A DNA stretch of 64,000 nt. It comes from an uncultured Cohaesibacter sp. (GTDB taxonomy: Bacteria > Pseudomonadota > Alphaproteobacteria > Rhizobiales > Cohaesibacteraceae). A program made the position numbers and the translations under genes. Positions 34,555 through 35,504 of this stretch are shown here, piece after piece. The notes beneath the pieces are model-generated. The model saw nothing but the letters and a program-made list of their open reading frames with translations, ran no database searches and had not been told where the DNA came from. The stretch is from the NCBI RefSeq assembly GCF_963676485.1, contig NZ_OY781114.1, positions 2,074,501 through 2,138,500 of the forward strand, written 5' to 3'. How positions within the stretch are numbered: position 1 is the first letter of the stretch; the number at the start of each line of letters is the position of its first letter.

Positions 34555-34674
34555 GCGTCCTTCCCCCGGGGTGGTTATGCATCCTTGATATGGGGAAAAA
34601 AGAAGGGAAAGCAAGCGTCGAGGGACTGGAATCTCGGGGGGAGCTTTGGCGATTTGAAAGGGAAGCAGATAACA

Positions 34675-34708
34675 AAAACCCTCCGGGGGAGGAGGTCCGG
34701 AGGGTTTT
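34675..34708 (-). terminator. Terminator closing the DUF1127-sRNA transcript
   Basis: A 12-bp perfect stem (34675-34686 with 34697-34708) is followed on the reverse strand by TTTTTGTT. It doubles as the third loop-bearing hairpin of the sRNA array. Confidence 0.85.
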
Positions 34709-34768
34709 GTTAGAAGATTCAAAACTGGGAGGAGGTAGTTTTGAATCGATCAGGCTTTGGGAGGAGGT
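34687..34768 (-). repeat. Three copies of a 10-nt anti-SD loop motif
   Basis: The sequence GGGAGGAGGT on the plus strand (ACCTCCTCCC on the transcribed strand) occurs at 34687-34696, 34727-34736 and 34759-34768. Each copy is exactly the unpaired loop of a perfect stem. Spacing is 40 and 32 nt. Confidence 0.95.
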
Positions 34769-34833
34769 AAAGCCTGAATTCCTAAGAAACTCGTGGCTTT
34801 CGCTAGGACATTTTCTGTCAGCGAAAGACTTTT

Positions 34834-34989
34834 TTATTTTGCAGTAGCAGCTTCACGTGCGATTTCGGTGATGTCGCCGCGGGAAATTCCCAGTTCGCCA
34901 AGATCGCGATTGCTCAGGCGGGCAAGTTCATCAACCGTGTCACGGTAGTTGCGCCACTGACGGTAGTTTTCAACAACAGTATTGATCAT
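34834..34989 (-). CDS. DUF1127 microprotein, CcaF1/YjiS-like (51 aa)
   Basis: 51 residues, MINTVVENYRQWRNYRDTVD followed by ELARLSNRDLGELGISRGDI and a short EIAREAATAK end. This is the standard DUF1127 fold: an Arg-rich amphipathic N-terminal helix and the LxxLSxRDLxDIGI signature. The ATG at 34989 is 9 nt after AAAGGA; an ATG 9 nt earlier would sit directly on that site. In Rhodobacter the homologue CcaF1 is an RNA-binding protein involved in sRNA maturation, and its gene is co-transcribed with CcsR sRNAs. Here the stop codon is followed within 6 nt by the hairpin array. The upstream AT-rich region should contain a stress promoter, but I could not define one. Confidence 0.92.
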   Translation of the reverse strand: MINTVVENYRQWRNYRDTVDELARLSNRDLGELGISRGDITEIAREAATAK

Positions 34990-35504
34990 CGGTGTCATTC
35001 CTTTGTTGCTATGTGGCTATTCATCTTCAACTGCATTTCAAAAGCGCTTGTTTGATTTTGTCTTTCAAACCCTTCATCGCTTTCTTGATTATGAATATAG
35101 TTCATGGCTGGCGATTTTACATCGCACAAAATTGCATGGCTGTTTTGTTAGATATGCATAAATTGAGTATAATCCATTTTTGATTGTTTAATTTTGCATG
35201 CCAAATCAGTTAAGCCATATTATTCAATATCTTGAAAATTTGTTGAATTTTCCAAAAAGCGAAAAATATCTCTATTCCTGTCTCAGAAAGCGCTCGCCGA
35301 TTTGAGCCCAACCAGTGGATACGTGTTTTTACGTCAAAAATCCTCCCTATTTAGGCATCTCTCACCCAATGAAAAAGCCCGAAGCGGTTGCCGCGGGCTT
35401 TGCTTGCTGGTCAGGCTAGTGCTTCGGGGCGAAAAGAACGCCTACCGTAGCGATGCCCTGCATCTGTGGCGTGGCTGGAAGGTGGCTGACCTTTCCAAGC
35501 CCTG
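34990..35504. other. AT-rich intergenic region upstream of the DUF1127 gene
   Basis: 515 bp with no supported ORF. The segment at about 35030-35280 is clearly more AT-rich than its surroundings and should hold the DUF1127 promoter. It contains a 7-bp dyad GAAAATT/AATTTTC near 35233-35251. The distal end has the purH-side terminator at 35373-35401. No convincing -35/-10 pair or RpoH element could be fixed by eye. Confidence 0.45.
35373..35404 (-). terminator. Probable purH terminator
   Basis: Arms AAAGCCCG and CGGGCTTT pair around a 12-nt loop and are followed on the reverse strand by a short T run. It lies about 100 nt after the purH stop, with no gene between. Confidence 0.7.

Follow-up and report, generated by a model that had tools for sequence, protein, structure and literature searches.

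The locus lies within a 64,000-nucleotide stretch of DNA, the whole of which was analysed (the window), and holds on its minus strand a short protein gene, a plain hairpin and an array of three further hairpins, with promoter-like elements upstream (Table 1). In a profile search, the open reading frame upstream of the array matched PF06568 (DUF1127) with 44.6 bits against a cut-off of 23.3. Its start was provisionally placed at 34989 from the AAAGGA sequence 9 nt upstream, with an in-frame ATG also present at 34998. CIN1 loci are recognized by a short DUF1127 gene immediately before the RNA and on its strand, an arrangement present here; the original paper on that locus is reportedly that of Reinkensmeier and Giegerich.

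Table 1. Features of the DUF1127-array locus, in window coordinates, and the evidence for each
Feature	Coordinates	Strand	Evidence
VtlR/LsrB-like box CAAAACAGCCATGCA	35133..35147	(-)	13/15 to the Brucella motif published in PMC12595884 (accessible text)
Putative -10 element CTATAT	35095..35100	(-)	By eye and distances in the genus; the NfeR1 -10 is CTATAT (PMC10746234, accessible text)
DUF1127 microprotein gene, 51 aa + stop	34834..34989	(-)	ORF list, PF06568 match, dN/dS in relatives
Plain hairpin, CTTTCGCT...AGCGAAAG	34797..34827	(-)	Fold, genome pattern search, comparison in relatives
ar14 small RNA array, three hairpins	34671..34782	(-)	Rfam RF02344, 88.8 bits
Hairpin 1, 9 bp, loop ACCTCCTCCC at 34759-34768	34750..34777	(-)	Motif count, stem pairing
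Hairpin 2, 11 bp, loop ACCTCCTCCC at 34727-34736	34716..34747	(-)	Motif count, stem pairing
Hairpin 3, 12 bp, loop ACCTCCTCCC at 34687-34696	34675..34708	(-)	Motif count, stem pairing, terminator scan

The earlier note had described three perfect hairpins with an identical 10-nt loop, and motif counting, stem pairing and folding all confirm them. The loop ACCUCCUCCC is common to the three hairpins, and ACCTCCTCCC occurs three times in the window, on the minus strand only, where 0.17 occurrences are expected and none of 100 shuffles held three or more. Perfect stems of 9, 11 and 12 bp, in order from 5' to 3', were returned by a script that pairs the bases around each loop. The stretch from the last DUF1127 codons to the T tract (34671-34844, minus strand), whose fold takes in the plain fourth hairpin as well, has a folding energy of -58 kcal/mol (z = -8.07), which none of 200 shuffles reached. 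The stems, described as unrelated, are so among the three hairpins of the window copy; across copies, however, corresponding stems align. Hairpin 3 and its T-rich tail likely form an intrinsic terminator: the stretch after the stem is rich in T, as had been noted, and a simple terminator scan lists the site, but four of the terminal T are paired with A in the stem and the scan returns about the same number of sites in shuffled sequence (two against a mean of 1.6).

A covariance-model search, which had been proposed as a check, gave RF02344 (ar14) as the sole Rfam match at gathering scores in the whole window, with 88.8 bits against a gathering score of 58.8 and an E-value of 9.5e-15. The window array has the three CCUCCUCCC loops and variable stems that characterize this family. 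Judged from its sequence, it is a new, well-preserved and largely ordinary example of an already known RNA family. The core of the original interpretation, an anti-Shine-Dalgarno array of the cuckoo type behind a DUF1127 gene, is supported by this match and by counterparts across the genus, which also decide for homology where homology or convergence had been offered. As for the proposed CcsR identity, the precise family is ar14/NfeR1, and the comparison with CcsR rests on the loop motif and the gene order.

In 29 distinct arrays, 97.8% of cells were paired under the common structure, compared to 27-58% when the structure was slid along the alignment. Changes on both sides of a pair were found at 12 of 33 pairs, in 65 cells compared to 25.7 in shuffles, and the covariation score was 0.224, a value not equalled in any of 500 shuffles (0.119). 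Because the arrays are related to one another and themselves supplied the structure, these figures lean somewhat in its favour. For further pair types, one of five measures, the count was 28 against 25.7 and was reached by 47 of 500 shuffles. Among the 111 loops of the 37 arrays in the genus, counted with TCCTCCC as the search criterion, 86 carry the full CCTCCTCCC and 100 carry CTCCTCCC. Stems covary and loop cores stay, so that the expectation of fixed loops and covarying stems in relatives was largely borne out. These observations bear on the possibility that CT-rich repeats fold here by accident, as a chance or repeat artefact. Seven of the 120 matches listed from a public genome collection are non-alphaproteobacterial by title, several of them regularly spaced like tandem repeats, which is what such an artefact would look like; the Rfam score, the conservation and above all the covariation of the 29 distinct arrays refute it for this family, and we give it practically no weight.

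The genome (5.08 Mb in two contigs) contains three ar14 matches above the cut-off and one weak match, as well as four DUF1127 matches, three of which lie directly before the three ar14 arrays. These three units were named type A, beside a thioredoxin-like gene (by eye), type B, the window unit, beside purH and a DUF1232 gene, and type C, and the units of relatives were assigned to the same types by eye from sequence. By tblastn, three other congeneric genomes have purH and the DUF1232 gene next to their B unit, and neither was found in the flank of a B-like unit in a fourth (L174). Across 61 genomes, the present one included, ar14 was matched in 34 and exceeded the cut-off in 23; all 18 genomes of the genus are among the latter, with 37 arrays in total, all of which were read. 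The co-linear order is nearly uniform, as 35 of the 37 arrays lie directly behind a DUF1127 gene. The other two, one unit each in genomes G008 and G013, have a box-like site and a three-loop array and no DUF1127 frame. They are located at L171:1700-2330 on the plus strand and in the matching stretch of L177 on the minus strand.

A DUF1127 search of the 18 genus genomes returned 55 matches, 34 at ar14 units and 21 elsewhere; the 35th array-linked gene (L181) was matched by a profile of our own and stands outside the 55-match list. Eighteen of the 21 array-less matches are long-frame genes of 113-210 aa, one per genome, and three are weak (19-24 bits). The long-frame gene is located at G000:C1:607515-607595 in the present genome and at one place in each of 17 congeneric genomes. 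By their sequence, the array-less matches look like a different DUF1127 gene and not like units that have lost their array. In a sister genus, one contig (L184) holds four DUF1127 genes in a row with short TCCTCCC hairpins after three of them, the loop motif being absent after the fourth. Relatives that keep the gene and lose the loops, named in the earlier note as a sign against its proposal, are therefore represented by one of the four genes of L184, while the 21 array-less matches of the genus appear to be another gene. Separately, a weak ar14-like pair of CCTCC-loop hairpins was seen in two congeneric genomes (L187, at G000:C1:4475296, and L176), behind a similar short frame (by eye) and with no DUF1127 match in the stretch.

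Selection on the protein was estimated from pairs of equal length with dS above 0.02. The type A gene gave a dN/dS of 0.12 (13 copies compared, 38 usable pairs) and the type C gene 0.02 (nine copies, 35 pairs), and DUF1127 is under purifying selection in both types. For type B, five pairs had a dN of 0, with too few differences to judge. A variant of the protein without the usual LG core (RECEVSISRADV) was observed in L003, L162, L164 and other type C units. The idea that the type C gene is decaying was rejected on its dN/dS over the nine copies.

The plain hairpin behind the stop codon had been proposed as a maturation boundary, and the comparison weakens this proposal. The hairpin is present in 19 of the 37 genus arrays, which are those of types A and B, and is missing from whole unit types that retain both gene and array. 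In 17 distinct sequences, its eight outer pairs are invariant and no pair changed on both sides. Because it occurs in only 19 of 37 units with an invariant sequence, the plain hairpin is no general processing boundary and is unlikely to be a required one. As the linker 3' of the plain hairpin is rich in U and A, the transcript might be cut there, ahead of hairpin 1. Three further ideas about this hairpin were tried and rejected. It does not behave as a covarying structure (no pair changed on both sides, eight of 11 never vary, and the score of 0.013 is below the shuffled 0.032); it is not a dispersed repeat, as a genome search found the exact stem pattern at units A and B only; and the idea that it is itself a decayed cuckoo hairpin, taken from the spacing, was dropped, as type C units begin with the counterpart of hairpin 1 shortly after the stop codon and intermediates were not observed.

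Upstream of the gene, a box resembling the published VtlR/LsrB motif scores at least 11/15 in 35 of the 37 genus units and starts 128-164 nt before the ATG. The distance from its start to that of the putative -10 element is 47 nt in 18 of the 19 units of types A and B, and the remaining unit lacks the hexamer; a sigma-70 scan did not list the CTATAT site in the window. The two DUF1127-less units of the genus reach only 10/15 and units of two sister genera only 9-11/15, scores that random windows of named genomes can also reach (at least 11/15 in 132 of 2554, at least 12/15 in 23 of 2554). With up to two mismatches, the published motif has 32 sites in the genome compared to one for a reversed control, and the box alone is therefore unspecific. 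A narrower pattern, TGCATRGCTGNNTTG, has three genome sites, which are those of all three units; it was set aside for the statistics in favour of the published motif, as it was partly fitted to the units.

Beyond the genus, a box of at least 12/15 was found, among the matches listed, in 12 of 27 named Rhizobiales-type DUF1127 units (one of the 27 is Brucella), in six of 64 Rhizobiales-type units without DUF1127 and in two of 19 Rhodobacterales DUF1127 units, with five edge units left out and taxon labels taken from record titles. Of these 12, five have the box at -105 to -131; in the other seven, which comprise six Mesorhizobium records and one MAG, it lies at -297 to -300. The place of the box is constant in the genus and not across families, and the named units are not independent. 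In 20 of the 66 named DUF1127-less arrays among the matches listed, the best box match falls 60-69 nt upstream of the reference point, a 10-nt bin for which 1.28 were expected; bins held at most 11 in 200 letter shuffles. The clustering is in keeping with the LsrB site that the NfeR1 promoter is known to have.

A gene for a candidate regulator was found in the genome: a LysR gene with trxB on one side and an AbcR-like RNA on the other. The accessible text of PMC7486931 describes this order for vtlR in Agrobacterium. Since the score of the LysR gene fell well short of the cut-off for each NCBIfam model shown, it is synteny that points to a VtlR/LsrB identity. The AbcR-like RNA (L186:6139-6275, minus strand; ar15, 33.2 bits, below the cut-off of 40) contains a CCTCCTCCC segment, and in the 12-kb stretch around it no box motif of at least 11/15 was found on the AbcR strand. 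The motif is accordingly not specific to the promoters of the regulon, that of AbcR among them, with its 32 sites in the genome and none of at least 11/15 on the AbcR strand around the AbcR-like RNA. According to the accessible texts, NfeR1 is switched on by LsrB and represses ntrB through its loops (PMC10746234), while VtlR is an activator of three DUF1127 genes in Brucella (PMC12595884) and, in Agrobacterium, of an orthologous gene for a small protein (PMC7486931).

The promoter region also bears on a Rhodobacter-like arrangement, in which the DUF1127 protein would bind the array transcript and promote its maturation by RNase E, with RpoHI/RpoHII driving the operon. Gene order and loop motif are as in ccaF1-CcsR (PMC10253847 and PMC8625941, accessible text), and the part of this explanation that concerns the protein may hold. 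The promoter footprint of the genus, however, read without an RpoH model, is a LysR-type box with CTATAT, two species have arrays without the protein, and for the DUF1127 protein YjiS no RNA binding was found according to the accessible text of PMC12501420. We regard this arrangement as improbable here.

Instead, we favour, with a probability of about two in three, a LysR-activated DUF1127-ar14 operon whose 3' RNA blocks the Shine-Dalgarno sites of several mRNAs. One promoter would be activated by a VtlR/LsrB-type LysR regulator through the box upstream of the gene, and a single transcript would then encode the DUF1127 protein and end in the three CCUCCUCCC-loop hairpins. The 3' part would be cut off or persist as the ar14 sRNA, and each loop would pair with Shine-Dalgarno sequences such as GGAGGAGG, blocking translation of several mRNAs, as NfeR1 does in Sinorhizobium. 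Candidate targets are consistent with such pairing: GGAGGAGG followed by 3-10 nt and ATG has 18 sites in the genome compared to four in the reversed control. Two of them precede whole genes, for cytochrome c oxidase subunit III (PF00510, nearly full length) and an ABC-transporter permease (PF00528); a third starts within a PLP-enzyme domain, and others open short or unmatched frames. As the candidate targets of NfeR1 are mostly ABC transporters and its pairing with ntrB covers eight nucleotides (PMC10746234, accessible text), the permease is a fair candidate for a first target. The longest exact sites (GGGAGGAGG-N3-10-ATG) were rejected as targets, being only two in the genome with no convincing gene after either.

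In the public genome collection, at least 142 clusters of at least two loops lie in named loci among the matches listed; DUF1127 is located up to 1000 nt upstream in 65 and absent from that interval in 71, and six are too near an edge, counts in which clusters may be parts of one array. In six Rhodobacterales DUF1127 loci (L131, L041, L084, L094, L115 and L137), 10 to 14 successive CCTCCTCCC motifs were observed when gaps of up to 160 nt were permitted. The array might instead serve chiefly the DUF1127 mRNA itself, as a 3' UTR element for stability and termination, with loops that are little active in trans. Its short distance from the stop codon in 35 of the 37 genus units, the terminator-like hairpin 3 and the scarcity of the longest perfect target sites would suit such a role. 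This explanation is nonetheless doubtful: loop cores stay while stems change, two congeneric arrays have no DUF1127 frame, 64 Rhizobiales-type and two Rhodobacterales arrays among the matches listed have no DUF1127 within 400 nt upstream, and NfeR1 acts in trans according to the accessible text of PMC10746234.

Beyond the single operon, we tentatively advance a broader proposal, judging it slightly short of an even chance: DUF1127-ar14 operons, duplicated in this lineage and three in number in this genome, would let one LysR regulator (VtlR/LsrB) turn on several DUF1127 microproteins together with several anti-Shine-Dalgarno arrays, with protein and RNA as separable parts and with one operon type carrying a strongly conserved DUF1127 variant that lacks the leucine-glycine core. 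The parts would be separable because some species have a box-like site and the RNA without the protein. The locus bridges work on LsrB and NfeR1 in rhizobia and on VtlR and DUF1127 in Brucella and Agrobacterium, which share few papers in the literature searched. Most units of the genus encode the DUF1127 protein, and two lack it next to an RNA of this kind. These naturally protein-less units make testable a question raised in the accessible text of PMC12501420, whether DUF1127 proteins act in RNA maturation or bind other proteins.

Finally, the locus can be set beside three known systems. With the VtlR/LsrB regulon of Brucella and Agrobacterium it shares the box before a DUF1127 gene and the row of trxB, LysR gene and AbcR-like RNA. 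Here, in contrast, an ar14 array follows the DUF1127 gene, and no such array is mentioned in the accessible parts of PMC12595884 and PMC7486931; the box motif was also not found before the AbcR-like RNA of this genome. In the literature searched, largely without subscription journals, no paper names VtlR together with CcsR or CcaF1; in their accessible text, PMC8844928 names both VtlR and NfeR1 and PMC12501420 both LsrB and CcaF1, and the link between DUF1127, ar14 and VtlR may be in print elsewhere. With ccaF1-CcsR1-4 of Rhodobacter sphaeroides, and with the DUF1127 genes linked to CcsR-like RNAs that are called the "CIN1 locus" in print, the locus shares a DUF1127 gene, then same-strand CCUCCUCCC-type hairpins and a terminator at the end (PMC10253847, accessible text; R. 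sphaeroides loop motif from the accessible text of PMC3927594). It differs from them in the 69 nt between stop codon and first loop core, compared to 19-35 nt in 36 of the 48 named DUF1127-linked loci listed, in its LysR-type box where an RpoH promoter is reported in Rhodobacter, and in a protein of 51 aa where that of Rhodobacter has 71 aa. Processing from a common precursor, dependent on RNase E and CcaF1, is published for R. sphaeroides (PMC10253847 and PMC8625941, accessible text). The closest likeness is to ar14 (RF02344), the family of NfeR1/Smr14C2 of Sinorhizobium meliloti and of the SmelA075 and SmelA099 families. The accessible texts of PMC10746234 and PMC7143759 describe three CCUCCUCCC loops of NfeR1 that pair redundantly with translation start regions, as well as a sigma-70 promoter of its own. 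Three hairpins with these loops, variable stems, several copies per genome and an upstream box similar to the LsrB site of NfeR1 are common to both, whereas the window array follows a DUF1127 gene and is preceded by an extra plain hairpin. To what is known of these systems, the present analysis adds the three units of this genome, the linkage of 35 of 37 genus arrays to DUF1127, the covariation and the near-constant place of the upstream box in the genus.
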